A DNA stretch of 34,823 nt from a virus. Position numbers and translations under genes: made by a program. Below the pieces are notes generated by a model that worked only from the letters and a program-made list of their open reading frames with translations, was not told where the DNA came from and made no database searches. The stretch covers positions 1-34,823 of the IMG/VR virus record IMGVR_UViG_3300042291_000529; one strand, 5' to 3'. Within the stretch, counting starts at the first letter, position 1, and every line of letters begins with the position of its first letter. Below, piece after piece: positions 1,454 through 27,295 of this stretch.

Positions 1454-1457
1454 AATT

Positions 1458-1478
1458 GGACCCTGCGGGGTCCTTTTT
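1458..1478 (+). terminator. Rho-independent terminator after the AAA+ ATPase
   Basis: A perfect 6-bp GC-rich stem, GGACCC (1458-1463) with GGGTCC (1468-1473), has a TGCG tetraloop and is followed by five T (1474-1478). It starts four bases after the ATPase stop codon. It insulates the ATPase transcript from the VWA gene, which has its own promoter just downstream. Confidence 0.88.
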
Positions 1479-1480
1479 GC

Positions 1481-1509
1481 TTGCTCTTTTGATAAATTGA
1501 CTATATAAT
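1481..1509 (+). promoter_or_regulatory. Sigma70-type promoter for the VWA/metallopeptidase gene
   Basis: A perfect -10 TATAAT (1504-1509) lies 17 bases after a partial -35 TTGCTC (1481-1486). The expected start is near 1516. A good ribosome site, AGGAG (1525-1529), precedes the ATG at 1535. The promoter lies between the terminator of the ATPase gene and the next start codon. The -35 box is weak, so it may be less active than the promoter at 292-320. Confidence 0.65.
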
Positions 1510-1534
1510 AGTATTATCGCAACTAGGAGTTATT

Positions 1535-2791
1535 ATGACAGTAATGAAAACTGAAAAACAAAAGAAACAAGATTGGACTGGTAAGGAATTTACCTCTGCC
1601 GAAAAAGCAAAGATTTTGGATAAACTTATTACCGCACGAGTTGGTCTGTTGCTCCGACATCCGTTTTTTGGTAATTTAGCTACTCGTCTTAAAATGATAG
1701 ATGCATCGGATTGGTGCAATACACTAGCCACAGATGGTCGTAACTTCTATTTCAATTACGGTTTTGTAAACAAGCTCACTCCTAAAGAAGCAGAGTTTGG
1801 TTTTGCACACGAAGTTCTACATAATGTATTTGATCACATGGGACGTCGTGATAGCCGCGATCCACAGTTGTCAAACATTGCCGCCGACTTTGCCACTAAC
1901 CAAATTCTTAAAGATGAAAGAATTGGTACAGTTCCTGCATTCATTAAGATTTTCCAGGACGACAAATATCGTGGCATGAGCTATGAACAGATCTATGATG
2001 ACCTGTATGAGAAGGCAGAGAAGATTGATATTGGTTCACTAGGTGAATTGTTAGACGAGCACCTGGACGGAGAAGGGGACGGAGAAGGGGAAGATGGAGA
2101 AGAAATTGACGGTAAAGGCAAAGGTCGTCCAAAACTTACTGCTGAAGAAAAGAAACAGATCCGTGATGAGATCAAAGAAGCTATGGTAGCGGCTGCTCAA
2201 TCGGCAGGTGCTGGTAAAGTGCCGGCAGGTGTACAGCGTATGATTAGTGACTTTACAGAACCAAAGATGGACTGGCGTCAACTTTTACGTATGAATATCC
2301 AAAGTATTCTTAAGAGTAACTTTAGCTTCAGCCGCCCTAACCGTAAGTCGCAACATTGCGGTGCAATTTTGCCAGGTATGATGAACGAAGAAACTATTGA
2401 TGTGTCAGTGGCAATTGACATGTCAGGTAGTATTTCAGACAAAATGGCTAAAGACTTCCTAAGCGAAGTTAAAGGTATTATGGATGAATACACTGACTTT
2501 AAATTGGACCTGTGGTGTTTTGATACGCAAGTGTACAACTATGCTCAATTCACTGGCGATACTGCTGAAGACATTCTACACTACGAAGTTAAAGGTGGTG
2601 GCGGAACTGACTTTGATGCCAATTATGAATTTATGAAGGAAGAAGGCATTGAGCCCAAGAAATTCATTATGTTTACTGACGGATATCCATGCGGTAGCTG
2701 GGGCGACGAAGATTATTGTGATGCATTGTTTGTTATTCACGGAAATGACAGTATCGTTTCTCCGTTCGGTCAGACAGCCTATTATAAATAA
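1535..2791 (+). CDS. DUF2201-type metallopeptidase-like / VWA-domain protein
   Basis: A 418-residue protein with the layout of the COG3864/DUF2201 family. The N-terminal domain carries HEVLH (92-96), followed by H101, a zincin-like HExxH signature. An acidic Gly/Asp/Glu linker (about 174-195) and a charged helical stretch lead to a C-terminal von Willebrand A domain. The metal-ion-dependent adhesion site looks complete: DMSGS (295-299), T358 in GGGGTDF, and D382 in FTDG. In cells such proteins are encoded beside MoxR ATPases, as here, and the VWA domain is thought to present substrates to the ATPase ring. The peptidase activity is predicted only. AGGAG at 1525-1529 supports the ATG at 1535. 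Arginine codons are nearly all CGN, as in the ATPase. The linker is encoded by a short GGAGAAGGGGA-type tandem repeat (about 2069-2091). No signal peptide is seen, so a cytoplasmic role is likely. Confidence 0.87.
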   Translation: MTVMKTEKQKKQDWTGKEFTSAEKAKILDKLITARVGLLLRHPFFGNLATRLKMIDASDWCNTLATDGRNFYFNYGFVNKLTPKEAEFGFAHEVLHNVFDHMGRRDSRDPQLSNIAADFATNQILKDERIGTVPAFIKIFQDDKYRGMSYEQIYDDLYEKAEKIDIGSLGELLDEHLDGEGDGEGEDGEEIDGKGKGRPKLTAEEKKQIRDEIKEAMVAAAQSAGAGKVPAGVQRMISDFTEPKMDWRQLLRMNIQSILKSNFSFSRPNRKSQHCGAILPGMMNEETIDVSVAIDMSGSISDKMAKDFLSEVKGIMDEYTDFKLDLWCFDTQVYNYAQFTGDTAEDILHYEVKGGGGTDFDANYEFMKEEGIEPKKFIMFTDGYPCGSWGDEDYCDALFVIHGNDSIVSPFGQTAYYK

Positions 2792-2803
2792 AGTAGGTAC
2801 ATA

Positions 2804-3100
2804 ATGTCGCTAAATAGAGGGACAGTTAATGCGTTGAGTGTTTTGGGATTTAGGAAACTATCCTTTATTCCAGAACATTTTGCCAGACTCTCTATTGATC
2901 ATAGGATAGATGTTAAAGCAGTAGAATATTGGATAGAGTACAATCTTAATAGTAGGTACTCAGTTCAAATAAATTACGGGCTGGATCATACCAGGAAAAT
3001 TTTAGAAATTACTGAAATTGGTATGGAAGATCCTAAAGAACTAACTATGTTATCACTAGGGTGTCATCATTTACATAAGAAAATAAAGGATAATTTTTAA
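2804..3100 (+). CDS. Hypothetical protein, 98 residues
   Basis: A small soluble protein with no recognised motif. It starts MSLNRGTVNALSVLGF and has a Tyr/Ile-rich middle (AVEYWIEYNLNSRYSVQINY) and a His/Lys-rich end (GCHHLHKKIKDNF). It begins 12 bases after the VWA gene stop, with a weak TAGG (2794-2797) as ribosome site, and is probably cotranscribed with that gene. All six of its arginine codons are AGA or AGG. This is the opposite of the two genes before it, which argues for a different expression level or origin. No membrane segment or catalytic residues are evident, and I do not assign a function. Confidence 0.65.
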   Translation: MSLNRGTVNALSVLGFRKLSFIPEHFARLSIDHRIDVKAVEYWIEYNLNSRYSVQINYGLDHTRKILEITEIGMEDPKELTMLSLGCHHLHKKIKDNF

Positions 3101-3101
3101 A

Positions 3102-3338
3102 ATGGAAAATCAAGAAGCACAAGTAACCAGCGAAGCAGTTGGTGGAGAAGCTCAAGGGGCACCTGCTCCTGAATTAACAATTACAGATTTAATCAACATT
3201 CGATCAGTTGTTGATGTTGCAGTTCGTCGTGGCGCATTTGGTGCTACCGAGGCATCTGCGGTAGGGGCTGCATTTGATAAGTTAAACACTTTTTTAAATG
3301 CTGTTGCGCCTGCTAAGACTGATCAACCGGCAGAATAA
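3102..3338 (+). CDS. Conserved small phage protein, 78 residues
   Basis: A small acidic protein in two parts. A disordered Gln/Glu/Ala/Pro-rich N-terminus (residues 1-24) precedes a compact helical part, LTITDLINIRSVVDVAVRRG followed by AFGATEASAVGAAFDKLNTF. This helical pattern, with a DL...I..V.D.A..RGAF core, is one I associate with small conserved hypothetical proteins of T4-like marine phages; the function is unknown. The start lies one base after the previous stop. AAAGGA (3085-3090), inside the end of the previous gene, can serve as ribosome site, so the two genes are probably translated in a coupled way. The next gene follows after 12 bases. Confidence 0.72.
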   Translation: MENQEAQVTSEAVGGEAQGAPAPELTITDLINIRSVVDVAVRRGAFGATEASAVGAAFDKLNTFLNAVAPAKTDQPAE

Positions 3339-3350
3339 AAGGAGAATCGC

Positions 3351-3941
3351 ATGAAACATGTGGGAAAAATGAAAAACAACTCAGCTAGAGTTGCTGTAGC
3401 GTATAGAACTATTCCTGGCGACGCAATGAGCGCTTTGGTAATCGGTACTACCGGCCTAGGCGATGCATATCACGATGCTCTTATGGCATTGATTGAAAGC
3501 GACACTGGTCAACAGGCAAATGAACTGGCGGATGTATTAGCAACTAGGAGATTTCCAGACGGAACTGTAATGTTAAGTTGGCTACATGCTCACGGACATC
3601 TTAAAAAAGTTCCCACTAGTCTTGTGTTGATGACTCAGAACTCGCAATCTTCTATTCCGCTCGACGAACTCAATGTTGTTATTGCAGAACAAAAAGGTGT
3701 TAGTCTAGATGAACTCGCTGTAAGTGAGGAAGGTAAGCCTAAAGATAAAAAAGCAAAAGCGGCTAAGGAAGAAATTATTATTCCCGAAGTAGTCGAAGCA
3801 GTCAGTACTAAGGCACTAACACCTATTGAAATGAGATCAAAGGCTGATAAACTTTTCAAAGAAGCACAAGCTCTACGCAAACAGGCAGACGCTATTGATC
3901 CGCCTAAAAGTAAAAAACAACAAACTGTAGAAGCTGAATAA
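3351..3941 (+). CDS. Conserved T4-like phage protein, 196 residues
   Basis: A protein in two parts. The N-terminal globular region (about 1-125) starts MKHVGKMKNNSARVAVAYRT and includes PGDAMSALVIGTTGLGDAYH and RRFPDGTVMLSWLHAHGHLK. After a Lys/Ala/Glu-rich charged linker (about 126-150) comes a helical tail, LTPIEMRSKADKLFKEAQAL followed by RKQADAIDPPK, likely a coiled coil. I recognise this two-part protein as a conserved hypothetical of T4-like marine phages; its role is unknown. The start has the best ribosome site of the small-gene group, AAAGGAG (3338-3344). Its stop overlaps the thyA start by one base (TAATG at 3939-3943). That coupling suggests co-expression with nucleotide metabolism but does not prove a shared function. 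Confidence 0.78.
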   Translation: MKHVGKMKNNSARVAVAYRTIPGDAMSALVIGTTGLGDAYHDALMALIESDTGQQANELADVLATRRFPDGTVMLSWLHAHGHLKKVPTSLVLMTQNSQSSIPLDELNVVIAEQKGVSLDELAVSEEGKPKDKKAKAAKEEIIIPEVVEAVSTKALTPIEMRSKADKLFKEAQALRKQADAIDPPKSKKQQTVEAE

Positions 3942-4822
3942 TGCATCCAGATCATGTTTACCTAAACGCTCTAAAAAATATTCTAGAGAACGGTGATGAT
4001 CGGCCTGATCGCACAGGGGTAGGTACACGAGGTATCTTTGGCCTTCAAATGAGATTCGATCTTACTGAAGGCTTTCCTGCTATTACTACAAAAAAGTTAG
4101 CATGGAAGGCCTGCGTCAGTGAACTACTTTGGTTCATTGAAGGCAGTGGAGACGAAAATCGTTTGAAGGAAATTTTGCACGGTGAACGGTACAGTGAAAA
4201 GAAAACTATCTGGTCAGATAATGCTTCTGCTCCATATTGGGTGAATAAGAGACTGCAACGACATCCTGGAGATCTAGGCCGAGTGTACGGCGTTCAATGG
4301 CGTAGATGGCGGAAACCATTAGTGCGTATCAACAAAGTTGTTTTACAAAATCATGACCAATTGCTAGAATTAATTGACGGAATCAAGAACGATCCTTATA
4401 GTCGTAGGCATATTATAACAGCTTGGAATCCAGGTGAACTTGACTTAATGGCATTGCCCCCATGTCATATGATGAGTCAATTTTATGTTAATAACGGTAA
4501 ACTAAGTTGTCAAATGTATCAACGTTCGGCAGACATGTTTCTTGGAGTGCCTTTTAACATTGCAAGTTACGCATTGTTCACTCACATGTTAGCACAGGTG
4601 TGTAATTTAGAAGTTGGGGATTTGATTATTACTATTGGTGATGCACACATCTACAATAATCACTTTGAACAGGTTAAAGAACAATTGACACGTGACCCAC
4701 TGCCATTGGCAAGATTAGAATTAAATCCAGAAATTTCTGTAATAACAGATTTTGAAATGGAAGATATTGAACTAGCAGATTATCAAAGTCACGATGCAAT
4801 TAAAGCACCAATGGCAGTTTAG
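3941..4822 (+). CDS. thyA: Thymidylate synthase (ThyA type)
   Basis: A 293-residue folate-dependent thymidylate synthase, which methylates dUMP to dTMP using methylenetetrahydrofolate and supplies dTTP for phage DNA synthesis. Visible family residues are R24 in DRTG, the arginine pair R155-R156 in SRRHI (phosphate binding across the dimer), the catalytic cysteine C175 in ALPPCHMM, D198 in RSADMFLG, N206 in FNIASY, and H236/Y238 in GDAHIYNN. The C-terminus IKAPMAV matches the usual ending of the family. Length is normal (E. coli 264, T4 Td 286), and no intron or intein interrupts it, unlike T4 td. The start codon shares its A with the stop of the preceding gene (TAATG), so translation is probably coupled. 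The 3' end overlaps the converging tail-fibre gene by four bases. Confidence 0.97.
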   Translation: MHPDHVYLNALKNILENGDDRPDRTGVGTRGIFGLQMRFDLTEGFPAITTKKLAWKACVSELLWFIEGSGDENRLKEILHGERYSEKKTIWSDNASAPYWVNKRLQRHPGDLGRVYGVQWRRWRKPLVRINKVVLQNHDQLLELIDGIKNDPYSRRHIITAWNPGELDLMALPPCHMMSQFYVNNGKLSCQMYQRSADMFLGVPFNIASYALFTHMLAQVCNLEVGDLIITIGDAHIYNNHFEQVKEQLTRDPLPLARLELNPEISVITDFEMEDIELADYQSHDAIKAPMAV

Positions 4823-6087
4823 ACCTTAACTTCAATCACACCAAAGCCTTCGGATTTATCTTCGAGGGCTTTTCCTATTACTGCTCCGCTAAAAACATTT
4901 TGTCCAACACAGGCATATCCCGGATGTGCGCTAGTTACTAGTAGATCGCCCTTCTTAATAGGACCAATAACTTTGCACGAAACGCGACCTTTTAAGGCAA
5001 TATAGGGGTGAGTTTCGTTGGTTCCTGCCTCGGAATTCATCATATAGGCTGGATTTTTACTTACTATACCCGCTACCCTTGTATCAGCATAAATTGCGGT
5101 AACGGTAACTTCGTTATCTCCGCCAACTACTAACACGGTACCTGGGTCATAGACTGCATCTGCTTCATATCGTTCAGCAAGGTCTGCATATAGCGCAGAT
5201 GATGCAACAGTGGTTAAAATATTAGTAGCAGGATTATATGTTATTCCATTATCTATGTATGCAGCATTAGTAGTTGAATTAATAAATGTAACATAAAATT
5301 GTTGATTAGTTGCGGTTGTATTAGCCGTAATACCGGAGGCAGCAGTTGCAACGTCAGCATGTAATGAGCTCAACGATTCGGCTGCGGTGCCCCAAAAATA
5401 ACTGCTAGTTGACAATCCGGTAATTTCACTCCTAGATGATCCGGTTATAGGATCAGCACCTGCTAGTGTAAAACCTTTTACAATTTTTGTAAAATTAGTA
5501 GTAATAGAGGGATAAGTAGGAGATACAGAATAATCACCTGACATATTATAAGTTTCTGCAGATACAATAGCAACAACTTCGTCGTTTGTACCTAACACAG
5601 CTTTGATATTGAATACTGGAAGGTCGGGAGCTAGTACATCATATTCAAAATCACCACGCCACTGTGCCTTAATGTTAGCACCAGTAGCCGGTCCAACAAC
5701 TATCCATTCTGTACCGGTCCACACCTTTAATTGGTTTGATATTGTATCAAACCATAAGTCACCTATTGTAGAATCGCTAGGAATAGTTTCACCAGTATTC
5801 GATACTGCCAATGTTTTAAATTTAGCTGCAATTGTTCCACTAGCTTCCGCATAACACACATTTAATGTGTTAGTTGTATTATTGTACCAGGTCTGCCCTA
5901 TTAAAGGAGTTGCAGGTGGAGTGCTATTTGAAAAATTTTCTAATAATTTTAAAAAGTTTTCATTTTGAATTTCACCGTAACCAGAATAGTTTCTTCCTAC
6001 AAATATTAAATCAGTAGTTTGATCTAAAGAAGCATCTTGTACTATTGTAAGTTGCTGCCCATTTGTTTTGTTTATAATATATGACAT
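4819..6087 (-). CDS. Tail-fibre-like protein 1, with conserved C-terminal fibre domain
   Basis: A 422-residue structural protein, the last gene of the minus-strand operon. The N-terminal module (about 25-135) is shared with the next two genes upstream in the operon. It contains DLIFVGRNYSGYGEIQNENF, GQTWYNN (64-70), GDLWFDTISNQLKVW (109-123) and VVGPA (130-134). The middle is low-complexity Ser/Thr/Ala. The C-terminal domain (301-422) begins ADLAERYEADAVYDPGTVLV and contains VAGIVSKNPAYMMNS and GRVSCKVIGPIKKGD. This type of terminal domain occurs on many phage tail fibres and looks like the self-cleaving (peptidase G2/IMC-like) or chaperone-like fibre tips; that comparison is inference. Likely role: host contact at the baseplate. 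The ribosome site is AAGAG before the ATG. Its stop overlaps thyA tail to tail. Confidence 0.8.
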   Translation of the reverse strand: MSYIINKTNGQQLTIVQDASLDQTTDLIFVGRNYSGYGEIQNENFLKLLENFSNSTPPATPLIGQTWYNNTTNTLNVCYAEASGTIAAKFKTLAVSNTGETIPSDSTIGDLWFDTISNQLKVWTGTEWIVVGPATGANIKAQWRGDFEYDVLAPDLPVFNIKAVLGTNDEVVAIVSAETYNMSGDYSVSPTYPSITTNFTKIVKGFTLAGADPITGSSRSEITGLSTSSYFWGTAAESLSSLHADVATAASGITANTTATNQQFYVTFINSTTNAAYIDNGITYNPATNILTTVASSALYADLAERYEADAVYDPGTVLVVGGDNEVTVTAIYADTRVAGIVSKNPAYMMNSEAGTNETHPYIALKGRVSCKVIGPIKKGDLLVTSAHPGYACVGQNVFSGAVIGKALEDKSEGFGVIEVKV

Positions 6088-6098
6088 TTAATATTCTC

Positions 6099-7484
6099 TT
6101 AAGGTCTAACGGCAGTAAAATCTACCTGCCTATTGTGATTAGTTGCAACAAAGTTGAAGTAGATAACATAGTTAGTAGTAGTACTAACAGTATCAGGATT
6201 AGTAATAGTAATAGATCCGGACGTGTATTCGCCGTATGCATTTAATATTTGAGTTCCTGAAGATATTGCTGCTATGGGTGGAGTAGATGCAGTATAGCTG
6301 AATCGAGAATACGGAACACCGCCAGTGACTTTGATGAAGAACGGAATACCTACAGTTATTGGATCACTAATTGTGCCTATCTCAGAAGTAGAAGTAGTGC
6401 CAACACTATCAGTTCTAATTATTTCATTCCAAGCAGGTTTCACAATATTAATATTTGCAGTAGGTGCCCACAACCAGGTCACTTGTCCAACAGTAGAAGT
6501 ACTAGTTGCAGTAAAGGTGTAAGGATGATTATTTAAAGGTTCCCACCAACTGAAATTTTGCTGTGAATAAGTCGTAGTTAATTCAAACTGTCTGACTGAC
6601 GTTTCTGTATTATATACACAAATAACTGATGCTCTAGTATTTCTCGGTGTAGATATAGTATCAAACATTCTTGCTAAACTATTAGCAATCGCATAATTTG
6701 CATTATTGTATGAGGTCAGGTTAGTATTGGTCAAACTAAAACTACTAGTTGTCATAGTAGCAGTATATGTACCATAAGGAGTTATATCAAAATACGCAGA
6801 TAAGGTAATTGGCGCTAAAACTTCTTGACCTTTAATATATATGCGACCTAAGACTTCCAAATCTTGTAATAACGTAACGCCTTTTTTAATAGATCTCGGT
6901 TGTCCTTCATACTGGGTTCCGGCAAGATATACCGTCGATGAAGAAGCAGTCATATTAAATGCTTCTTCCGAAATTAATCCAGCATATTCACCATAAGAAT
7001 TAATTAAACTAACCTTAATTGGATTAGGCAATTCTCCATTACGGATAGGTCCCGGTGGAGGCAATATACCAAATTGACCTAACAGGCCGGAAGTAGCAGG
7101 CCCTACTAAATTGTAACTGTTGCCATCCCATACTTTTAATTGAGTATTAATAGTGTCATACCAAAAATCACCAGTGCTAGTTGTAATAGGAGCAGTCCCG
7201 CTAACATGAGATCCGTATGTAGGCTGAAAAGATGATCCGTCATATACTGTTAATCGTTTTGCAGTTTTATTAAACCAAAGCTGACCAGTTTGAGGACTTC
7301 TTGGTTCTTCATTTTCAGGAGCTGCAAAACTGGTCAATAGTCTAACTAGATTGGTGTTGTAATACTCACCGTAGTTGTTTACATTTTTTCCTATTAGATC
7401 TAAGCTAGTGGAAAAGGTATCAACATCACCAACTGCAATAGTTGATAATACTGTTCCGTCGTTATTATATATTGTGTAGGCCAT
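6099..7484 (-). CDS. Tail-fibre-like protein 2, paralogous N-terminal module with Ig-like end
   Basis: A 461-residue structural protein sharing the N-terminal module of its neighbours: SLDLIGKNVNNYGEYYNTNL (27-46), GQLWFNK (67-73) and GDFWYDTINTQLKVWDG (105-121), then LVGPA (126-130). A third shared piece, LISEEAFNM followed by KKGVTL, comes after the VGPA. The rest is Thr/Ser/Asn-rich beta structure. The last 100 or so residues (ITVGIPFFIKVTGGVPYSRF ... SGSITITNPD) look like an Ig-like beta-sandwich, a fold common on phage surface proteins. It begins 12 bases (11-base gap) before the next gene in the operon and lies one base after the previous one. The ribosome site is weak (AAAGA). Its role is probably attachment or decoration of the tail. 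No enzymatic motif is visible. Confidence 0.75.
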   Translation of the reverse strand: MAYTIYNNDGTVLSTIAVGDVDTFSTSLDLIGKNVNNYGEYYNTNLVRLLTSFAAPENEEPRSPQTGQLWFNKTAKRLTVYDGSSFQPTYGSHVSGTAPITTSTGDFWYDTINTQLKVWDGNSYNLVGPATSGLLGQFGILPPPGPIRNGELPNPIKVSLINSYGEYAGLISEEAFNMTASSSTVYLAGTQYEGQPRSIKKGVTLLQDLEVLGRIYIKGQEVLAPITLSAYFDITPYGTYTATMTTSSFSLTNTNLTSYNNANYAIANSLARMFDTISTPRNTRASVICVYNTETSVRQFELTTTYSQQNFSWWEPLNNHPYTFTATSTSTVGQVTWLWAPTANINIVKPAWNEIIRTDSVGTTSTSEIGTISDPITVGIPFFIKVTGGVPYSRFSYTASTPPIAAISSGTQILNAYGEYTSGSITITNPDTVSTTTNYVIYFNFVATNHNRQVDFTAVRP

Positions 7485-7485
7485 T

Positions 7486-9219
7486 TTATGTCTTTATATG
7501 ATAATAGATTGGGTGCCCGTTTGTTCCAGACAACGTAGCAGTTGTTAAATTAGGAACCTTAAAGAATCCAGCAGTAACCGTAGTTCCTGTACCGTACTTG
7601 TCAACTCCCCCGAGAGCATTCCACAATGTTTGATAGCTAGCTTGACTAACTTCTTGTCCATTGCAATATAAGAATCCAGTATAGGACGTTGAGGTACCCG
7701 ACGGCATGATCATGCCAGTTGAAATTAATCCAGGATATACATCTGCTAGAAAATTTCCTTTGGTAATTTTAGATAACGATCCGGTATCTGTTACAATCAT
7801 TGTAGTAGTACTTGTAGCAGTTGTTAAAGACGGTTGGTCAGTAATTGCGCCAGGAGTTAATGTTGTTGTTAATGTTACATTTGCAGAGCCGTTAAATGTT
7901 ACGGCAGACGATGTTGAATGTCCGCTTATACGGAAGGTTCTAGAAGTCTGCAAAGAGGTAGCAGTATCAGTGTTACCATAAATGTTAACAAAAGTTGTAG
8001 AGCTACCAATATTTCTTACATATACACTTTCAAATGGTCTAGCAGCTGATCCTAAATTTGTTGCCGAGTTTACGGGAATAATATTTCCAGCTATGATATT
8101 CGAAGCTGTGGATATTTCAGTTGTACCGTATACAGTTAAATTACCTGCCAATGAAGTATGTCCCGCAACGGTTGCAGATCCTGTTATAGATAGATTGCCA
8201 TTAGCACTAATTTCTCCATTGAAATACGCACTGCCATTAACTGTTAATGTTCCTGTATTAACAGAAGTATTAATTCCTACCTTACCAGTCTGTCCATCAA
8301 ATTTTATATAAGAATTATCTGTTACCCCAACTTTTAAAACACCAGATGGGTAGCTATATTCGACAAGTCCTAAGTTTGTACCAGTAGAAGTAGCAATCTT
8401 TATTTCTTTATTAGTTTGATTTGGTCGTCTAACAAATAATCCCTGAGCTGATTCTACAATTAATGATCCAGCAAGTAGTTGTCTTTGAGAAATAGGCCAT
8501 ATATTTTTTAATACTTCGTTAGCTTGAACATACACTCCATTAGAAATTTCTAATGTCTTAGCTCTATCTGCAAGACCATTAAATTTTGCAGCCACTTTTG
8601 TAGTGAGGTTAACACCCGGAACTAAGCTAGAGAATCCATCGATAACTGTTCTAGGCGTGAAAGTATTGTAAGAGATAATCTCAACAACTTTACCATTTAC
8701 CCAATTTAAAATTACAGGATATGTTTCACCTGTATTGCTTATTAAATTTACAGCTTCGTTACCTGTTTTAGCATCACCAGTCGATACGTTCGGACCTACT
8801 AAAGTCCAAGTATTACCGTATCTAATTTTAACCTGAGTATTGCCAGTATCGACCCAAATATCTCCATCAATTAAAAGTTGATGGTACTCTATACTAGGAT
8901 CATTTGCCTGTTGATAAATTCCGTTAGCACTGGGCCAGCGAGCACTTGTTGCTGCGCCATTGTTAACACGCAATACTTTGCGACCTGGATTGCTAGTGTC
9001 ATACCACAATTGTCCTTCAATAGGATTAATAGGTGCATTCGGACTTGCAAAATTTTCAAGCAACCTTAAGAAATCTTGAGCAATTGTTTCGCCATAGTTA
9101 ACATATCCAGGTCCTACAAGATCCAGACTGGTATCGTAATTATTTTTAATAGGACCAGTAACAGTAATCGTATTTGACTTACTAGGATCTGAAAAATTTA
9201 GAGTATATTGTGTTGCCAT
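7486..9219 (-). CDS. Tail-collar / short-tail-fibre-like protein 3
   Basis: A 577-residue structural protein with three parts. The N-terminal module (about 30-145) is shared with its two downstream neighbours: SLDLVGPGYVNYGETIAQDF, GQLWYDT, GDIWVDTGNTQVKI and LVGP. The middle (about 290-470) holds short beta repeats such as NGEISANGNLSITGSATVAG and GNLTVYGTTEIS, expected to form a trimeric beta-helical shaft. The C-terminus (501-577), TGMIMPSGT ... GFLYCNGQEVSQASYQTLWN followed by FKVPNL, is a phage tail-collar domain, as in T4 gp12 and many fibres. Likely role: fibre or collar that touches the host receptor; whether it is the true gp12 equivalent cannot be settled here. It starts two bases after the stop of the 221-residue structural gene. 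Confidence 0.85.
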   Translation of the reverse strand: MATQYTLNFSDPSKSNTITVTGPIKNNYDTSLDLVGPGYVNYGETIAQDFLRLLENFASPNAPINPIEGQLWYDTSNPGRKVLRVNNGAATSARWPSANGIYQQANDPSIEYHQLLIDGDIWVDTGNTQVKIRYGNTWTLVGPNVSTGDAKTGNEAVNLISNTGETYPVILNWVNGKVVEIISYNTFTPRTVIDGFSSLVPGVNLTTKVAAKFNGLADRAKTLEISNGVYVQANEVLKNIWPISQRQLLAGSLIVESAQGLFVRRPNQTNKEIKIATSTGTNLGLVEYSYPSGVLKVGVTDNSYIKFDGQTGKVGINTSVNTGTLTVNGSAYFNGEISANGNLSITGSATVAGHTSLAGNLTVYGTTEISTASNIIAGNIIPVNSATNLGSAARPFESVYVRNIGSSTTFVNIYGNTDTATSLQTSRTFRISGHSTSSAVTFNGSANVTLTTTLTPGAITDQPSLTTATSTTTMIVTDTGSLSKITKGNFLADVYPGLISTGMIMPSGTSTSYTGFLYCNGQEVSQASYQTLWNALGGVDKYGTGTTVTAGFFKVPNLTTATLSGTNGHPIYYHIKT

Positions 9220-9221
9220 GA

Positions 9222-9872
9222 TTAGTTTCCAATATTACTCAAGCTCTGAATTCGTATTGTGTAATCAATTTGAATCAATCTATTCAAACTTTTTTGTACG
9301 GGGTGAAAAATAACATGAGTTAATAGCATTCCTGTGTTAGGACCTTCAGTACTAAAGGATTTTAAACCCAATTCATCAAATACATAAGCGCCTTCTGAAT
9401 TAGTTGCATTATCAAATGCTGCTTGATCGCTAGGTTCGCCAAAGTCTAATAAACAGCTTACAAGAACATCAGTATAAGCAACACCAGCAATGTGTCTAGT
9501 TTCCATAAAGTTTCTTGCAGGATCTAAAGAATAACTTTGTTTAGCATCAACTGTTTTGTAATAAGTTTGATTATATAAGGCAGCAACATTACCAGTATTA
9601 TTAGGAGTTAAGTAAGTAATGATTCCTGTCGGGTCAACTCTAGTTCCGCCATTACCAAACACCATTTCTGCAATAGTGCCTTCGCCTTGATTTGCTATAC
9701 TCTGTGCAAGAGCAATAGAGAAATTTTCGTAGTGAATTGCATTTCTTTTATTAATAAAGACTTCGTTAGTAGTAGGGTCATAGATCTTAATATGACCCTG
9801 AATGCCAACACTACCTGCTTCGTTGGGTTTAGAAGCCGGGATAGGCGTGGGATCTTTTAGTAAATTGCTCAT
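9222..9872 (-). CDS. Conserved virion structural protein (baseplate/tail region)
   Basis: A protein of 216 residues from the preferred start, MSNLLKDPTPIPASKPNEAG. Recognisable stretches are GIQGHIKIYDPTTNEVFINK, RNAIHYENFSIALAQSIANQ, EMVFGNGGTRVDPTGIITYL, and the C-terminal LTHVIFHPVQKSLNRLIQID. I recognise it as a conserved structural protein of T4-like marine phages, normally next to the fibre genes; its exact place in the virion is unknown. An upstream in-frame ATG at 9887 would add MEDKN. I prefer 9872 because GGAAG (9881-9885) sits 8 bases before it. The late-promoter-like octamer at 9892-9899 would also start transcription too close to the 9887 ATG. The fold looks soluble, mixed alpha/beta; no catalytic motif was seen. 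Confidence 0.8.
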   Translation of the reverse strand: MSNLLKDPTPIPASKPNEAGSVGIQGHIKIYDPTTNEVFINKRNAIHYENFSIALAQSIANQGEGTIAEMVFGNGGTRVDPTGIITYLTPNNTGNVAALYNQTYYKTVDAKQSYSLDPARNFMETRHIAGVAYTDVLVSCLLDFGEPSDQAAFDNATNSEGAYVFDELGLKSFSTEGPNTGMLLTHVIFHPVQKSLNRLIQIDYTIRIQSLSNIGN

Positions 9873-9891
9873 GTTTTTATCTTCCATACTG

Positions 9892-9919: not shown

Positions 9920-11575
9920 TTAACTTCCGTACCTATAAATTTTAGGTCTTGGCCAAGCTAGTCCTGTACTAGGACGAAGACCTTGATTTACTTTAGGACC
10001 TACTTGCCCCGTTGCTGGCCGTTCTTTATAAAAGTATAAGAATCTATTAGTAGATCCTTGAAGATCAGTATAATCAGTTGGTCCGCCTGTACCTGCTGTA
10101 ATTTGGTTAAGTTTTGATCGATCGTGTATGTATGTTAATGCTTGCGTTTGATTTAATCTAGGCCAGGTTTCTGCAAGACACGCTAACACACCCGCTACTT
10201 GAGGACTTGCCATTGATGTTCCAGATCGTTTAGTTAAGTAATATGCAGTGTCCCGAGCATCGTTAGAATAAATTCCAATGTTAGAATTTATACTACTCAT
10301 AATATGCCGACCAGGCGCATATACATCTATACGAGGTCCGCAATTACTACTAACAAATTTAGAATCATCAATCGATGATCCAACTGCTCCAACGCAGATC
10401 ATATTTGAAACTGCTGTTACAGTTCCTCTTAGGTAGTAATATACTAAGAAACCTACAGTAAAATAGTTGTTATAATCATCAGATATTGATGACGTTTCAT
10501 TTGCAATTTTAGAATATAGATTTCCGGCTGCTCCAACTGCAATAACGCCTGCTGCCATTAAATCAATAAAGTCTTCTTCTAGTCCAGTGTTGCGCTGGTT
10601 AACAAATGCGAAACCTCCAGAATTAAAAATTTCGTAATTTGTAAGTTGAGTAGAAGTAAATGGGCCAGCTATTGTAGTTCCTCGGTATCTCACTGAAGTG
10701 ATTGATGTAATGTTTACTTCTATAAAAAGACCGTAACTATGATTTGTTATAGTGGGGTTTTTATTTCCCGTTAAAGGATTAATTTCTTTATTTTGATGCC
10801 ATACTTTAATGTAATCTGAAAAATAAGTAGTAGAACTAGGAGAACTAGAATAAGGACTTATATTATAGATAGTTGCATCACGTGCCCACCCTTGAGTATT
10901 TCCAACAAGGGTACCTGCTACGTGAGTTCCGTGATCGTTATCAGTTGTCCTATCTGAATAGCCGTCACCGTTATAATCAGGATAGGATGGATCAACATAG
11001 GGACCATAAACATACGTACCGGGGAAATCAGAAATTACTGTCGGGTTTATTTCAAACCAATTGTACTGGACTACTCGAGAACCACCAGTACCGTCAACAT
11101 TAACTGCAAATTCTGGATGATCAGGATTCATGTGGCCGTCTACAATCACAACGTCAACATGTTTTCCACTGGCAGTTACATTAATTTCTCCGGATGTATT
11201 ATTGATACCATTGGATCCCCAACTAGACCGTTGTTGACCTTCAACAGATCTTAATAGACCCCAATTTTTATGAGAAGCTGAAACTGAATTTGATTTATTC
11301 CAAAAAGTACTAGATTGGACCCAGTTAGGTCTAAATTTTAGACCTGCTTCCTCAAGTGACAACTCAACAGCCATTACTCTTGAATCTTGGCGAATCAATG
11401 CTGCTTCATTGTCAGTTAATCTATAATGTGTATTCCTACTAACAGGTCGCCTATTTTTAACCGGAACTCCCCTATCGGGTATAAAAAGAGAGCCACCCGG
11501 AGTTTCCATGTCATCATAGAAATTATCTAGATCTTCATAGTGGTGTAGTGTTATAACATATTCTCGCTCTTGCAT
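9920..11575 (-). CDS. Subtilisin-family (S8) serine protease in the tail operon
   Basis: A 551-residue protein with an intact subtilase catalytic domain. Catalytic residues are Asp146 in VIVDGHMNPDHPEF, His215 in DNDHGTHVAGT, Asn352 (oxyanion) in GAAGN, and Ser454 in SGTSMASPQVAG. It therefore should cleave proteins. There is no signal peptide or membrane anchor, so it acts in the infected cell or in the virion, not by host secretion. The first 130 residues (MQEREYVITLHHYEDLDNFY ...) lie before the catalytic domain and may be a pro-region or a docking domain; residues 500-551 are a short tail. A long Asp/Pro/Tyr/Gly-rich loop sits between the Asp and His motifs (about 180-212). It lies one base after the collagen-like fibre gene and 32 bases before a structural gene, so it is expressed with tail parts. 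It may process fibre or giant proteins, or act on host surface proteins (both inferences). Confidence 0.92.
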   Translation of the reverse strand: MQEREYVITLHHYEDLDNFYDDMETPGGSLFIPDRGVPVKNRRPVSRNTHYRLTDNEAALIRQDSRVMAVELSLEEAGLKFRPNWVQSSTFWNKSNSVSASHKNWGLLRSVEGQQRSSWGSNGINNTSGEINVTASGKHVDVVIVDGHMNPDHPEFAVNVDGTGGSRVVQYNWFEINPTVISDFPGTYVYGPYVDPSYPDYNGDGYSDRTTDNDHGTHVAGTLVGNTQGWARDATIYNISPYSSSPSSTTYFSDYIKVWHQNKEINPLTGNKNPTITNHSYGLFIEVNITSITSVRYRGTTIAGPFTSTQLTNYEIFNSGGFAFVNQRNTGLEEDFIDLMAAGVIAVGAAGNLYSKIANETSSISDDYNNYFTVGFLVYYYLRGTVTAVSNMICVGAVGSSIDDSKFVSSNCGPRIDVYAPGRHIMSSINSNIGIYSNDARDTAYYLTKRSGTSMASPQVAGVLACLAETWPRLNQTQALTYIHDRSKLNQITAGTGGPTDYTDLQGSTNRFLYFYKERPATGQVGPKVNQGLRPSTGLAWPRPKIYRYGS

Positions 11576-11576
11576 T

Positions 11577-12410
11577 TTAATTTTCCAGTTGTAATATGGT
11601 CAAATCAACATTTATAATTCTAGACACAGAATCTTTGTTAGTTACTGTTAAGTATATTGTAGAGGTCGTTGTTGTGTCATTATTAAATCCAAGAACGCCA
11701 GGAGTAATTAATTGTGTTAGGGCGCCAACTGAAGTAATAATTTCAGCAATTACTCCACTGCCGGGCAATGGATCATTTCCTTCTGTCCTACTTGAGTCAG
11801 CACTTCTGCTTGCACCATCAGAATAAATTCGTACCCATGCAGGATAATTAGTAGTTACTTTTGATAGGAGATAAGATTTAGCTCCTACAGTCTGGCAGTT
11901 TGATGCGGCAGCGGATGCAACACTTATACCGGTTGTGGCCTGTACAGCGGTCCTAGAAGACAGACCAATTACTGTTGCGGGTCTCCAAGTTGAACTACTT
12001 GCGTTCCAAACTAGTGCTTGATTATTCGTAGGAGGAGATGATGCTGTGTCAACATCAAGAAAAACGTTTATGCTAGTTGCAGTATAGGCTGTTGGTATTC
12101 CCGTTAAAGAAGAATAATTACCAGTAGTAGATACTGCTGCAAGGGACTGCCATCGAGTATTATAATTAGTAGCATCTATCTTAGCTAATACTTGGTTAGC
12201 AGTTCCTCCTGGAATCACACCCTGACCGTTAGTACCAGTACTTCCTGGGGTGCCGGGATCCCCTTTAAACCCAACATTGGTTAGTTCACTAGATAGTTGA
12301 GTTAAAAGACTTGAAAAAGTAACTCGTTTTGTAAGTCGATTATCAACTATTACAAATGTCGTAGCATTTGTAACATTAGTAATCGTTGGTAATAGCGTAA
12401 TATTTGGCAT
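11577..12410 (-). CDS. Collagen-like fibre protein, 277 residues
   Basis: A short fibre-type protein. Residues 47-64 form six Gly-X-Y triplets (GFKGDPGTPGSTGTNGQG), a small collagen-like segment that usually trimerises. They are followed by a tail-fibre-type linker, GGTANQVLAKIDATNYNTRW. The middle has LTGIP and FLDVDTASSPPTNNQALVWN, typical of repeated phage fibre elements. The C-terminal beta-rich domain (from about 165) contains YPAWVRIYSDGASRSADSS and DPLPGSGVIAEIIT and is probably the exposed head. Likely a tail or baseplate accessory fibre; its exact position is unknown. The start is one base after the stop of the giant protein gene, with AAGGA inside that gene's last codons as ribosome site, so translation is coupled. 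Confidence 0.78.
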   Translation of the reverse strand: MPNITLLPTITNVTNATTFVIVDNRLTKRVTFSSLLTQLSSELTNVGFKGDPGTPGSTGTNGQGVIPGGTANQVLAKIDATNYNTRWQSLAAVSTTGNYSSLTGIPTAYTATSINVFLDVDTASSPPTNNQALVWNASSSTWRPATVIGLSSRTAVQATTGISVASAAASNCQTVGAKSYLLSKVTTNYPAWVRIYSDGASRSADSSRTEGNDPLPGSGVIAEIITSVGALTQLITPGVLGFNNDTTTTSTIYLTVTNKDSVSRIINVDLTILQLEN

Positions 12411-12411
12411 T

Positions 12412-15400
12412 TTAATATCCTTCTAGAGGTTCTCCGTTTTCATCCGTTAATGCAACACTGTTTTCAAGGAGCACTTTTTCTCCTCCATAATAATATATGT
12501 CTGGCAACTCAGCTGGTCTAGAACGTATAAAGTTAGCCTGTGTACCTGTACTAGATACTAATGATGTTGCACTAGCATTTTCCCAGAAGGCTCCTTCCTT
12601 CTTCACTACCGTTATTCTTGTTCCAGTTGTAATTTCTTCAGCAATATTTAATGTTATCTGTTGAGTAGATGTAGTTATAGTAAATTCTGGAGGAAGTGTT
12701 TCATAACTCGAAGTTGTAACTCCGTTAACCTGCACAGATGCCATTGTGTAATATGAACGAGATTTATCGTGAACAATTAGTGAAGTTTTTCGTAGCTGGC
12801 GTCCGCCATAATATACTTCTACTTGATCTATTGCGTTAGTAAGTGTTGAGAATATAATACCATTACCTGCATGAGTTGATGTAGTAGTTACAAAAGTGGA
12901 CGTATTCGTCACAGTGCTAATAGTATATGTTGTTGTATTTGAACTAGGAATATTCTGTATTAAACTATAATCAACTGTTGGAATAATTTGGCGAATACTT
13001 TGATCAATAACTTCTGTGCCTATGTCAGAGAACTTTGCAGGACCAGTTCCTAATGTCGATCGGCGCAGGCCACTTAACACGTTTCCGTCTTTAGCAGTGT
13101 ACTCAATGCGTTCGCTGTCAACTAAGATAACTCCTGGTAAATTTCTTCCTGGATTTGGTTGCAATAAATGGTCACCATGTTCTACAAAAATCTTATCATC
13201 AGTATATTGTAACGGTTGTGCTAACTTTGTAGAGAAATATTCTGATATACGTCTAAATTGCTGACGACCAAACATGTCTTTAAAAATTCTATGACCTAAT
13301 ATTTTAGTTCCATAAGATGGAGGATTAATTACGACAACTACAATATCATCAGTTAATTTAATATTTACAAATTCTGATAATTCAATTGTTCTCATATCTT
13401 CACGAACAAAATAATCAAAGCCAGCAGTTAATTGTTTGTTTTCAATAGTTACCCATACATAATTTTCATTAAGCACAGGGAATGTCAATATTAATTCGTC
13501 AGTGCCTTTGAATCTTTCAGTCCTTATCATCATGTTGTCATGATCAGTAAACGAAGTTACTTTAATAGTAGCAGTAGTAACAGGAGTTGATAGACTCAAT
13601 GCATTACCTGTTAAGAAGTAATCATAATCAACCAATGGCAAGATTGCAATTGCATCTCCTGCGACTATTCCAGGTTTAATTAATGTAATAGTTTCGTTTA
13701 TTGTATTAACAGTAAAGTCATAGCCTGGGCGTAACTCAATGCCATTAACGTAAACTTTAACATTGTTTAAGTTATAAGTACTTGGACGAGAATTTTTAGA
13801 ATCAATAGGATAAGTCATTACTCCGTTACGGATTTTGTAATAACTTGCCCATGGTGGTAGCAATCTTTCTCTAGTAGTATCTGTTATTTTTTCAACAATA
13901 ACTTGTTCGCTTAGAGGTTCAATGCCGCCGGGTGCTCGCTCTAAAAATAATTCAGAAGTTGCAGTAGACCCAACGGTAAAGAATTGTTCATGCATTGTAT
14001 TAAATTTAGGATATAACTGATTGAAGAACCATGCTTCTAAATTATATAAATTACTAGTTAATCCATTAACTGTAATCATTGCTCTATTATTAACAGAGCT
14101 AGTTGGACTCAATACAAATCCTCGAACACTAATATCTTCGGGATTTGGTGACTCTCCTATTACATCGCCGTTTAGTAAAACGTATACACTTAATACTTCA
14201 TCAATAGGTAGTAAACTAGACACTGCTATTGTTCCGGTATTTCCCTGAGAAACAACTTCGGTTCCTACATAATTACTGTCTACTATAGTATTAGAACCAG
14301 CAGTAACAAAAGAATATCCTACTAATGTGTTGGCCGGTTGCGTATTAACAACTATAGTATTGCCAAACATACAATATTGGGTAGAAGTAGTGAATGAGTT
14401 TTCATTGAAAACTTTTTCAAATGTTCTGCCATTTGCCTGTACTCTAAATCCTAAAGGTGCATCAGGTAACCATGTTAATTCTGCTCGAGTCACGCCAGAT
14501 GGTCCAGCGGCAAAAGCTCCAGATACTACCAATGGGTATGTTAGAGGCTCAACTGTAGTGTATACGTTAATACCCACAGCATCGCGCACTAATCCCGGAA
14601 CACATTCTTCAGGAGCATAACTATCAACAGAATTTAAAAAATTGTTTCCATCAATAACAATATCTTCTGGTTTGTAACCCAAATTTGTATCGTATAGATT
14701 AGTTCCGCTTATCATACTATCCAAACTATTGTAATTACTATTATACGAGTAAAACTCTAATTCAGTAGATCCGTATACACGAACATCTAGTTCTCCAGAT
14801 AATGTAACACTTGGATCGATACTTCTTACAGAAACAACTGCTCTATTCAGGCCATCAATTGAATTAGAAATACTATACCAAAGAGTATTAGTAGTAGTTG
14901 AAAGTATTTCAGTAGATGTTGTACTCAAAGTAACAGCAGCTCGTCGAACATCAACATACGGTGCAAATGTCTGTAATGATAATACTGTGGCACTAGAGAA
15001 TGTTTCAACAACAGTGTCTAACAATTTATTATTAGCATCTAATTTGTTAATGATGCTAGTGAGGTTAACATGAGCATCTGATTGTAAAGTAGTTCCTAAG
15101 CTGCTTAATTCTAGATCACTAATGCCTTCAAGGTAATTATTTGCAGTCTTGGTTATCCCAATAGCTTGATTAAATCCTGGATCAAGACTAATTTCATAAT
15201 CTAATGCAGTTACTACTACTGTTGTTCCGCTAAATGTTGCCGACACATTAGTGTACGATGGGCCGTACCCCATGCCTGGATCTGTAACAATAATATTTGT
15301 TACAGTAAACCCGTCTTGAACAACTGTAGCATATGCTTGTCTTCCACTAGGATAATTAGGTGGAGGAAAAGTAACTGTAACTAATGAAGTTGTTGACGTA

Positions 15401-18400
15401 GACATAATAGTAGTTAAGGTAGAAACTGATCGAATTCCGTACCCGTAAAGACTATTAACTCCTACAACCGCTACTAAATCTCCTACGCTGATAGCAGTAT
15501 TAAATGAATCCTTAGTGTTAATAATTATTGTAGATCCAGCAGGAGAACCTGATTGAATAACGCCTTCAGAAGTTACAATACGAATACTGGTATCTGTTAA
15601 ATCGTTAACAGTAAGTGTAATATTATTAGTACCAGTGTTACGAAAGCCAATAGTATTTCCGTCAATTAAAATTTTATCACGGAAAACATAATTTGCGCCG
15701 CCCGTACCAGTTGACGAAACCCGTACGTTATACCCAGTGTTATCTACTATTAAATCAAAAGTAGCATTAGAACCTACTTGATAGTTTGTGCCTGTTATGT
15801 TAGTATACACTGTATAAGATGTGCCTGCGGCGGTACCTTCAACAATACTAGCATAGCCAACAATTGGGGATGGAGAATTATTATCAACTGTAATTATAGC
15901 ATCATTGACTCCATCTACACCACCTAGTGCTGAACCTGAAATCTTGATCTTATGTCCTATTCGATAGTTCAACCCGCTATTAGTTACTGTTGAAATGCTG
16001 TAAGTTCCAGTGCCGGTATCAATTATATTAAATTCTGCGCCGCTTCCGACAAGAGTAGTACCAGATAACCCAGAAATTGTATATGTTGAGAAGATTCTTT
16101 TTATTTGTGTATCTACTAAGTCTAATGTAGTAACATACACTTTATTACCTGGACCAACACCTGATACAATAGTAGTAGGTTTAAAAATTTGAGTAGAGGT
16201 GTTTAACGGAACAATAGTCTGTCCTGCAAAAATTCCATCAAGAGAACTGACCGTAAATTGTGTTTGATTTACATCCAAATCTCCCAGAAGTTTAGTAACT
16301 GCATAACTATTAACAGTTTCGCCCCAAGGAGCAGAATCAAACCCTGTACCGGTATTATCCCAGTTAGGGGTTTGATTAAACAGTAAGCCTTGAACAGATA
16401 TTCCTGGATATTCTGCGCCGTTTAATAGTAGGGGCAATTCTTTACCTGGCATCAAATCACTAGGATTATATAGACTATTAATTCTATCTACAGCATTATA
16501 CAAATCAATATTCTTATTATAGGTAATTTTAAAAACTTGTCCATAAGTTGGAACTTGATTTAAGAATACAAACTTAGCATAGTGTCGAATATAACCTGGT
16601 AGTTCTCCTGATCGTTCTGTATTCAAGAAATACTTATAACGATGGTCAACCATTCGTTCACCTTCCCAAGAATTTCTTGGGAACGCCTGAGGAATATCTA
16701 TACCAGTTTGAGATACCTTAACTTGATAATATTCAATAGTATAGTCTGCACCAAATATTAATTTGCCATCTAATAACGGAGTAATAGTACGTTTGTCTGG
16801 ACTTGCTAACCATGTTAATGTAAACTTGTCCAATGTTCCGTCACATACAAATTCGTCAGTTACTGTTAAATCAACAATGTCACCTACTGTAGAAGTTCTG
16901 TCAAACTTCATCCCAATAATATTTTTTCGAACAGTATCATTGGACATTATAACAGATACCCTAGCAGGATCATTACCTACATTACTATTAGAAATAGTTA
17001 CGATTGGTGGAATTACATATCCAGCTCCCGGATTGGTTACTAACACCTTGTACACTTCACCGTTTCTAATGTATGCTTCGGCAGTTGCACCCGAACCAGT
17101 GTCACTAGTAGCAGTAGTAATAGTTACTGTAGGTCTTTGAGTATATCCTGTGCCTGCATATCCTACTTCAATTGCTCCAACATAGAATTTATAATTGTCT
17201 GCCCATGATTTCCAAGGATATGTATCTAGTAATGGATCACCTAGCCCAACTACTTCAAGAGAGTCGCTGACTGTATTATAGTAAGACGGTAAATCGAAGT
17301 CAGTTGTGTATAGATTAGACTGTTCAATCTTATCGTAGATCGAAGTATAACTTCTTATCTTTGTATGATAAGGTTTGATTTCATTAATATAACTTTCAAA
17401 ATATTCTTCATTATTTAATTTATAAACAGGACGCTGATCAAGTGTACCGATGTTATTAAAGACGTTGATGAAGGAAGTTTTAAATGCCCAGTCCAATAAT
17501 TTCTGTTCTGTTAGCGCATACTTAACTGCTGCAAAGAAAAACAAATTCCAATTTACTTTTAACGAATTAATAAAAATATTATCTTTTAGGGCAGTAAGAA
17601 TATAATACAATTCTTGATCAGGAATTTGGTCGTATAAAGTTTCTTCAATAGTTGCACTGTCGTAAGCATACTTGCCTAAACTGTAATCCCACAAAGTATC
17701 TAATAACTGTATAGTCCCCTGTTCTCTGTAGACAATATCATATGAAGGAATATAATTTCCAGCAGCTTCTACTTTTTGCAATATTGCATATTTTCCATCG
17801 CCAATATTTTTGACTTTTACGTAGTCACTATTAGCAATAGAAGTTAACGATCCTAATTCAAACAGATTAGATATAGTGTATCCTACAGTTTTATATGCAT
17901 CATAGGTACTATTAACCCAATCAACTGTTTTCCAGAACAATGGTGTATTGTACTTTTGAGTTTGAGTTCGAACCCATACTCTTAAAGAATAATTAAAACT
18001 GTGCTTGGTCCATCTTCCGTTATAATCAGCGTTAGCCTGAACAATAATTGTGTGCGGTCTAACTTCAATTTTTAAAAGCCCGTCTTGGTATCCAGCTCCT
18101 ACATTAGTAATAGTTGCAGAAATTATCTTGCCTTCTGAATTTAATTCTGTTACAATCTCCCCCACAGAGGTGCCGGCTGAAAGAATTTTAACCTTTGGAG
18201 CAATGGTATATCCGAAACCAGGATTAATAATAGTTACATTTTTTATTTTTCCGTTTTCTGCATAACATTCTAAGCTAGCACGTATATAGTTAACTGTAAA
18301 GACTTCATCAAGTGCAGCGGTATCTTCAACTATTGCATCATACTCGTATGAAAGTAATGCAGGAATTTCTTCTACCTTGTTAAGGTTTTCAAAAGAATAA

Positions 18401-21400
18401 TTTCCTACAATTCTATTTTCAAGCAATACAGAATTTACAAAAGAAATTAAGTTACGTAATGCTGCCAATCTATCTTTAAACAGAGTTTGTTGAGGACGAA
18501 TTCCAATTCCGTATCTATTTCTATAGGTAAGACTCTTACTAGGAACAACTGTGCCTAAACTATCGTGCCCTAATAAGCTGTCAAATAATTTCTTTTCTAA
18601 GAGCGTATTAGGTAAACTTGTATGATCTCTTTCATTCAATAACAACCATTCAGTGTGAGTAGGAGTAGATGAATAATAATGAGTACTGATATTTGCATTA
18701 ATTCTGTTACCAACTAGTAGTGGTTGGACATTTGCAAATGCAACAGTGTCAGGAGATAATATTTCAATAAATTTTAATCCGTTAGCAACGGGATCCGCAA
18801 TATAATTAGAAACTTGATAGCTACTTAACCTTCTATTTTTAACAGAAGGCAATGTTACTTTATTCTTAACCCAGAAGTAATAAACATTTTCAAATGCGCC
18901 TGTTACATTATTAAACACTTGTTTAACTGAGATAACACTATTGTCAGGATATTTAGGTTGGCCACTAATACTATTTGTCAATCCTTTAGTAGTGTCAGCT
19001 TGTGCAGCCCATTCGCTTGGTAGTAGATCTGATTTTACCCATTCATAAACATCAATACTTGCACCTGGGAATAATCTACCCCAATTATTTTTTCTAAATA
19101 TCTCGTCGCCTTGTTCATACCAGGTATACTTAGCAGTACTCAAATCCCACCATAATTCACCAACATGCTCATCTAACCAGTTTGTTTCAGTGTTGACAAT
19201 TGTGCCTGCAAGTCCTATAGAATATGTAGCAGGATCAAATGCGGCTTTATATTTTAATTCTTGTTCGGCAATACCTGCAATCTTTCCTTTAACTGGATCA
19301 ATAACATCAAGATAATCAATAATCTCTTCTTTCAATGTATCAATTAGTGCGACACGCCCAACTGTTGAAATATCAACTAAGTCTGATTGTTCTCTTAACA
19401 CATTCCAGCTTAGAGAATTTGTATTCACTTTATTAAAGATAAACAATCTAGAAGCATCAGTTGCAGGAGCAGGTAATAAATTACTTTGATTTGTCGGTGC
19501 TCCTACAAACACACCATTATTGGTTACTACAACTGCACTACCATATCTGCTACCAGCAGAAATAGTGTAAACTGCAGGTTCTAAAGTAAATGTTGTATAT
19601 CCAGCTCCCCAAACGTCTGTTAATGCGTTTTGAGCATAGATTACCAAATTACGAATGCCAGCAGGGAATCGAGTAGTATCAATATAAAAATAATGATCAC
19701 GATTTGGAGAATTTTGAATTGTGCCGCCGTAAGGACCATATGTTAGCCCATCAACTTGTCCAATAATATACTTAATATCAACATCTGTATGGAATGTAAC
19801 AACTATGGTATTTCCTATGTTTGCAGGATTTTCAGACAACTCGATGTTAGTGATTACAGGAGCTGTTGGGGCTTGTGTAGGAATATCAAAAGGTATTATA
19901 GATGCTTCTGTAACATCTTCAATTATCCTAACATCGTTCAATTCGTCAGCTTGAATGAATTTGTTGCCTATCTTATTGTACAAATAAACTGTTCCAGCAT
20001 CCGGCAACGACTCATTAAACTTTGTAGAATTATTGTCAAATGTAGTCTTACCTGAATTATTATATTCATCAAATATTTGGTCTTGACTTCTAGTTTTGCC
20101 TAGAGCGCTGATACCAATTGTCTTTTCATCTTTACTGATAGATATAGAGTAACCAAACTTTAAATCATTGGTAGGTAGAGGATTGACAATAGTTTGTACT
20201 AATGTATATGTACCTGTAGAAGTTAAATTAGTTAGTTTATAAATGTCAACTTTACCGTAAGGTTCGTTTGTTTCTTTAAACTCAGGTGCAGATATAATTA
20301 GGTAATTTGTTGACATAGCAACATCATATCCAAATTTACCAGTTAAGTGTGATAAAGTTTGTAGGTATTGTAAATTATTATTAAAAATTTCTACAACACC
20401 GGTAGAGGTATTAAATTTACCCGGGGCGCTAATTGCAATTCTTGAACTATCAGGTGATCCGGCAATTTTATGTCCCCATTGATCCCCAGCATACAATATT
20501 GAATTAGGTTTAATTTCAAATAATTCTGGATGGTCATTAACTACTGTTTCATTCTTTAATGTAGTTGTAACTGTTCCGTTAGTTCCGGTAGTATTTCCAA
20601 TAATTAACACTGTTGGAGCTTGTAAATACCCCCATCCTGGACTAGTAATTATTATTGAAGTAGCAGTAGCAGTAGCAGTTGTTGAAGTAGTTAACCAGCT
20701 AATAATTCCAGTTGCAGGAACTCCATTCGAAGTTTCAGGATTTGAAAAACTTAACGAAATAGTAGATGTATTTGATTTGTCAGCTGTTGTTAGTCCAGAT
20801 AACACTGCTGAGGCTATTCCCTGGCCGCCACGAGAAATTCCAGTCGTAGAGGTAAATGTTCCTGTACCAAAACTTACAACATAAGCATATACAGAACCTG
20901 TGCTAATAGATGATGAGATTCCAGGAGCACCAACCAACATCATTGTAGACACATTAGACGCAACTTGATTTACATATATAGAATGGCCGAACCTAGAGTT
21001 ACTTAATGTAGCTGTATTAGTTAATACAATTTCAGTAAATGTTGGAAAATCTTCTTGACGACTATCAATCTTAACTAATCCTTCATTGATGTAAGGTCTA
21101 GCGTATCCGGTGCCAGTACTAAAAGTTAATACATTAGTTCCAGTTGCTCTAACATAAGTAGCCTCAGGAGCTCCAGTTACATACAACTTTTTTGCAATAT
21201 CATATTGTAAAGCATAACCAAACTGTGTAGAACTAGTTGCGCTGGCGTATGTTTTTTGAGCACTATTTAAAATATAATCATATTTTCGTGCCCAGATACC
21301 GTTTACGTTATTAAAGACTTTAACTCGTCCCCAATTAAATGTTCCGTCAACTTTCCATCCTGGTGCAGATACTAACATTACAGGGCTATCATCGGATGCA

Positions 21401-27294: not shown

Positions 27295-27295
27295 G

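Follow-up and report, generated by a model that had tools for sequence, protein, structure and literature searches.

A predicted proteinase K-type zymogen of T4-like phages, encoded in a strict pair with a fibre domain

The known virion enzymes of tailed phages act for the most part on polysaccharide or peptidoglycan, and T-even gp38 and Tfa are partner proteins encoded behind the fibre. These two and Pam3 gp25 resemble the protein described here in gene position, and bind the distal fibre as we propose for it, but, unlike it, none of them is a protease; for Pam3 gp25 a structure is available (PMC9608196). Tailspike depolymerases such as LKA1gp49 (PMC5701251) are virion enzymes that act on the host surface, the role proposed here, although they cut polysaccharide and are themselves fibre proteins, whereas the present enzyme is a separate protease. 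In the pfam13884 intramolecular chaperone peptidases (PMC4728585) a peptidase is linked to the fibre C-terminus, again as proposed here, but these are part of the fibre chain, cut only themselves and belong to a family different from S8. Proteinase K-like subtilases (keratinase 5wsl, aqualysin I 4dzt, proteinase K 1ic6) have the same catalytic fold (Z 34–36) and an N-terminal propeptide like the one predicted for our protein, which differs from them in having no signal peptide, about 160 extra catalytic-domain residues, a disordered tail with a motif, and a phage fibre as its pairing partner.

The window, that is, the whole stretch of 34,823 bases that was analysed, is a virus record with T4-like baseplate genes (gp25, gp6-like and gp5), and comes from a T4-like virus of bacteria; a near DNA search of phage records with it gave no match. 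Its protease belongs to PHROG 9158, whose cyanophage members are annotated as "subtilisin-like serine protease" or T4-GC 292. In Sullivan 2010 an S8 peptidase, T4-GC518, appears as a gene and nothing more, and in the literature on cyanophage subtilisins, virion S8 peptidases and fibre-linked subtilases we found no function for the family and no description of a propeptide or of fibre pairing. New here are the predicted zymogen layout, the catalytic invariance, the fibre-domain pairing, the alternative partner, the fast divergence and a relative labelled as a virion protein.

An S8 protease with a predicted propeptide

The protease gene encodes 551 residues from an ATG start (Table 1). The initial annotation had described a complete subtilisin-type protease, set in a fibre operon and with no export signal, and all of this holds. 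The four residues, correctly numbered there, lie in the S8 motifs VVIVDGH (D146), DNDHGTHVAGT (H215), GAAGN (N352) and SGTSMASP (S454); Pfam Peptidase_S8 (PF00082) covers residues 137–479 (E=3e-25, 89.6 bits, gathering cut-off 21.8); and the first 60 residues are without a hydrophobic stretch, the best 15-residue Kyte-Doolittle mean being 0.27. The patterns used to search for relatives left out the four catalytic residues, which are far beyond chance because they are invariant among all 92 non-identical family members; as judged from these sequences, catalysis in the family is under selection. In the AlphaFold2 model of the protein (mean pLDDT 87.7) the catalytic domain matches keratinase 5wsl with Z 35.9 (277 aligned residues, 2.4 A) and aqualysin I with Z 35.4. 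By its motifs and modelled subtilase fold the protein is a member of peptidase family S8, of proteinase K type, with predicted activity. That it is not of the T4 gp21 type, as had also been claimed, agrees with S-SCSM1, which has a prohead protease (ORF40) plus a separate S8 protein (ORF228); no gp21-family signature was found in the window protease, the Pfam and PHROG matches of which are to S8 alone.

Table 1. Features of the protease gene and the paired fibre gene in the window
Feature	Position	Strand	Basis
S8 protease gene, family PHROG 9158	9920..11575	minus	ORF call, Pfam, PHROG match
Predicted I9-type propeptide, residues 1–78	11342..11575	minus	Predicted layout, Pfam of relatives, hhalign
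Predicted processing linker, residues 73–84	11324..11359	minus	Model and start of mature-enzyme alignment
Proteinase K-like catalytic domain, residues 85–522	10010..11323	minus	Predicted model, structural match
Catalytic D146	11138..11140	minus	92/92 relatives
Catalytic H215	10931..10933	minus	92/92 relatives
Oxyanion-hole N352	10520..10522	minus	92/92 relatives
Nucleophile S454	10214..10216	minus	92/92 relatives
Disordered C-terminal tail, residues 523–551	9923..10009	minus	pLDDT 32–44, conserved motif
Paired fibre protein, 277 aa, short collagen-like run	11577..12410	minus	ORF and sequence reading
Fibre C-terminal jelly-roll domain, conserved pairing partner	11580..11960	minus	C-terminus of 87/87 upstream genes

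What was missed earlier is a region that looks like an I9-type propeptide. The AlphaFold2 model gives residues 1–78 a beta-alpha-beta-beta-alpha-beta layout directly ahead of the mature enzyme; I9 (PF05922) is the commonest Pfam match in the relatives (14 of 33), through weak matches with a best E of 0.0078; and hhalign places these residues in register with the propeptide of subtilisin E (letters verified against PDB 3whi) at E 0.0032, against 0.28 for a reversed control, the closing motif DP.V..VE also falling in register. The propeptide profile found no match among PDB sequences, and the whole-model structural alignment runs mostly over residues 85–533, so that the propeptide alone is little covered by it. 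Residues 79–83 of the linker are disordered (pLDDT < 50), the alignment of mature proteinase K, aqualysin and keratinase starts at model residue 85, and a propeptide cut is predicted near residues 79–84. Each of the I9 signs is modest singly; taken together, they suffice to make a zymogen likely. At the other end of the protein, the tail carries a motif, G..[FYWL]PR, that is found in 85 of 92 relatives and, among the ten window proteins tested, occurs in no other, which makes the tail a candidate docking peptide.

The protease matches PHROG 9158 with E=1e-98, and the cyanophage proteins of this group (S-CREM1 SCREM1_165, S-H38, S-RSM4 SRSM4_039, P-SSM2 T4-GC 292) are of the same family and have its catalytic residues; the closer ones have the fibre domain and gene order in common with the window, and the isolate members are at most about 43% identical to the window protease. 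The 37 annotated phage records that match it belong without exception to cyanophages or to marine single-cell viruses, with identities of up to 43%, and the S8 protein of S-CAM1 is a member too, though a very divergent one. From viral contigs, a profile-guided scan gave at least 579 relatives, several of them on large contigs of up to 400 kb, and 80 loci were kept. A cyanophage host for the window was first assumed and then dropped: a T4-type capsid gene is present in 11 of 13 relative contigs tested and psbA was found in only 1 of 20, so the family, which is known and widespread among uncultured T4-like phages, probably extends past the known cyanophages, although many of the contigs are fragments. 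Among the relatives, S8 is fused to LamG, Ig, cupredoxin-like and esterase-like domains. The cupredoxin-like extensions, C-terminal and with a plastocyanin-like motif, occur in loci L013 and L019–L022, and S-TIM54 (L030 4063-10485) encodes near the portal gene a 2140-aa virion protein with S8, Ig-like and esterase-like domains. Second S8 genes accompany the fibre-paired one on the contigs of L011 (G002:C1:37796-38797) and L039 (G006:C1:33411-34313).

Fibre pairing and partner swapping

The collagen-like fibre gene upstream and the close spacing on both sides were rightly recognised in the initial annotation: the fibre gene, whose product contains the run GFKGDPGTPGSTGTNGQG, lies 1 base from the protease gene, and the downstream gene (9222-9887) lies 32 bases from it. 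The C-terminal domain of the fibre, of about 127 residues and modelled as a beta sandwich (pLDDT 93.5), stands at the C-terminus of all 87 readable upstream genes in the contig loci, a set in which at least two of the loci come from duplicate copies of a single contig. Fibre and protease genes are 1 base apart in 42 of 88 loci and overlap by 4 or 1 bases in 23 of 88. What follows the protease varies, the 221-aa family of the window being found there in only 32 of 76 loci, and so does the setting of the pair, which adjoins the giant and gp6 genes in S-CREM1 and S-H38 and lies in the talC/tRNA region in S-WAM2, S-RSM4 and the ACG phages. In the subgroup of P-SSM2, S-SCSM1 and Sf-CH8 the upstream domain is common to the subgroup and differs from the fibre jelly-roll domain. 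Across the compared loci, genomics establishes a strict pairing of fibre and protease. No clear PDB relative of the fibre domain emerged, and its likeness to the jelly-roll domains of other subtilases was set aside because it is weak, the best Z of 7.4 being usual background.

The giant protein had been put forward as a substrate for maturation, and as an obligate partner or as a general role this is not supported: of 88 contig loci, some of them incomplete, 32 have giant-like sequence close to the protease, and S-RSM4, S-WAM2 and the ACG phages have the cassette at another position. In the window the giant structural protein (12412-27306, minus strand, 4964 aa, phrog_10938) shows CBM_5_12 matches around residue 1552, along with FG-GAP and C1q matches that are weaker. 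The gp5-like baseplate protein (31344-33638, minus) ends in a GH19 chitinase/endolysin-type domain; three tandem fibre-like proteins of 422, 461 and 577 aa with a common N-terminal module, phrog_15511, are encoded at 4819-9219 (minus); and the interval 371-4822 reads as a MoxR-like ATPase gene, a VWA-type-looking gene and thymidylate synthase (3941-4822).

Against four close relatives, the protease is 69–78% and the fibre 65–78% identical, compared with 92–96% for the next gene; dN is about 0.13–0.28 for protease and fibre and 0.03–0.05 for the next gene, so that the pair diverges about five times faster, dS being near saturation for protease and fibre.

The same fibre domain also precedes a second kind of partner. 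Among its 20 copies in isolate loci, 12 are followed by S8, 7 by a second family of about 600–930 aa and one, in a siphovirus, by neither. Four members of this alternative family scanned against Pfam gave no match and no S8 signature. Both pairings are present in one genome in S-H9-1, ACG-2014i and AG-345-P14, and partner swapping behind the fibre domain is shown by these gene orders. In a tree of 40 fibre domains, which cluster by partner type even inside one genome, the partner label changes twice, compared with an average of 7.5 when labels are shuffled and with none of 500 shuffles giving so low a count, near-copies among the domains likewise clustering labels, so that the tree is support rather than proof. 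Because of these few label changes and of the three genomes with both pairings, the fibre domain seems to be matched to its partner type, as docking predicts. Genes of the alternative family lie at L019 2575-4878, L025 5380-7206, L026 5383-7680, L027 8309-10639, L028 5365-8154 and L113 708-2678.

Virion presence and possible roles

The S-SCSM1 record carries virion labels on its S8 protein ORF228, on the upstream fibre ORF227 and on an alternative partner, ORF232. We counted 48 such labels in the genome, and the study reports 45 virion proteins detected by MS (PMC9602691). The label seems to track detection rather than homology, because several hub genes are unlabelled and a translational repressor is labelled. 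ORF228 is a divergent relative, with an upstream domain different from that of the window, and from this one labelled relative the protease is likely a virion component. For S-CREM1, virion MS yielded only 14 proteins, and the peptidase goes unmentioned in the text of that paper.

We propose, with moderate confidence, a self-activating virion-borne subtilisin of proteinase K type that is docked on the fibre and cuts host-surface proteins. Synthesis would take place in the host cytoplasm and yield a zymogen in which the I9-type propeptide, to judge from fold and family, would aid folding and block the active site; as the product of the gene directly behind the fibre gene, the protease would dock on the C-terminal jelly-roll domain of the fibre, perhaps via the conserved disordered tail, and cleave itself once near residues 79–84. 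Riding on the fibre tip, the mature protease would then cleave host-surface proteins, whereby a receptor would be uncovered or the virion freed, as the proteolytic counterpart of tailspike depolymerases. A virion enzyme that trims host surface proteins was among the roles suggested initially, and it is favoured by the strict fibre-domain pairing, the partner swapping, the rapid co-divergence, the lectin and Ig fusions and the virion label of the relative.

The main rival, which we regard as possible if rather unlikely, is fibre maturation, also among the roles suggested initially. Here the protease would act during assembly and cut the fibre encoded upstream or one nearby, for instance to free or trim the C-terminal domain of that fibre. 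The strict pairing and the invariance of the catalytic residues fit this reading equally well, T5-like fibres are known to have C-terminal chaperone domains that cleave themselves (pfam13884; PMC4728585), and the fast divergence of the protease could track a changing fibre substrate. Assembly proteases can stay in virions, as prohead proteases do, and virion presence is compatible with an assembly role because the prohead protease is also virion-labelled in S-SCSM1. Yet the fibre domain would have no general need for S8 cutting, because a non-S8 partner follows it at other loci, in some cases within one genome, and a transient processing enzyme would not be expected to be fused to lectin and Ig domains, as S8 is.

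It is improbable that the protein is a fibre assembly chaperone or adaptor in which proteolysis is limited to removing its own propeptide: its position behind the fibre gene is like that of known fibre chaperones and adhesins, and Pam3 gp25 forms a 3:3 complex with the fibre gp24 (PMC9608196), but triad and oxyanion Asn persist throughout the family, to identities as low as about 25%, at a position where the partner need not be a protease because the alternative family (four members scanned) shows no S8 signature. A role inside the cell, with the protease acting on host proteins or at lysis, would suit the missing export signal and is the least probable of these roles, given a gene that is always in the fibre pair and in structural gene clusters and the S-SCSM1 virion label.

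More tentative than the docked protease is the idea of a widespread, modular "socket" system in T4-like phages, in which the fibre domain would take a self-activating subtilisin or another large partner, so that a proteolytic tip could be swapped for a different one and the protein coats of hosts opened by proteolysis before infection. In cultured cyanophages, fibre and protease offer a pair of proteins that can be tested directly. If the proposal of a fibre-docked zymogen subtilisin is true, a large family (at least 579 contig matches) that is labelled unknown would gain a function, and T4-like phages would also cut host-surface proteins.
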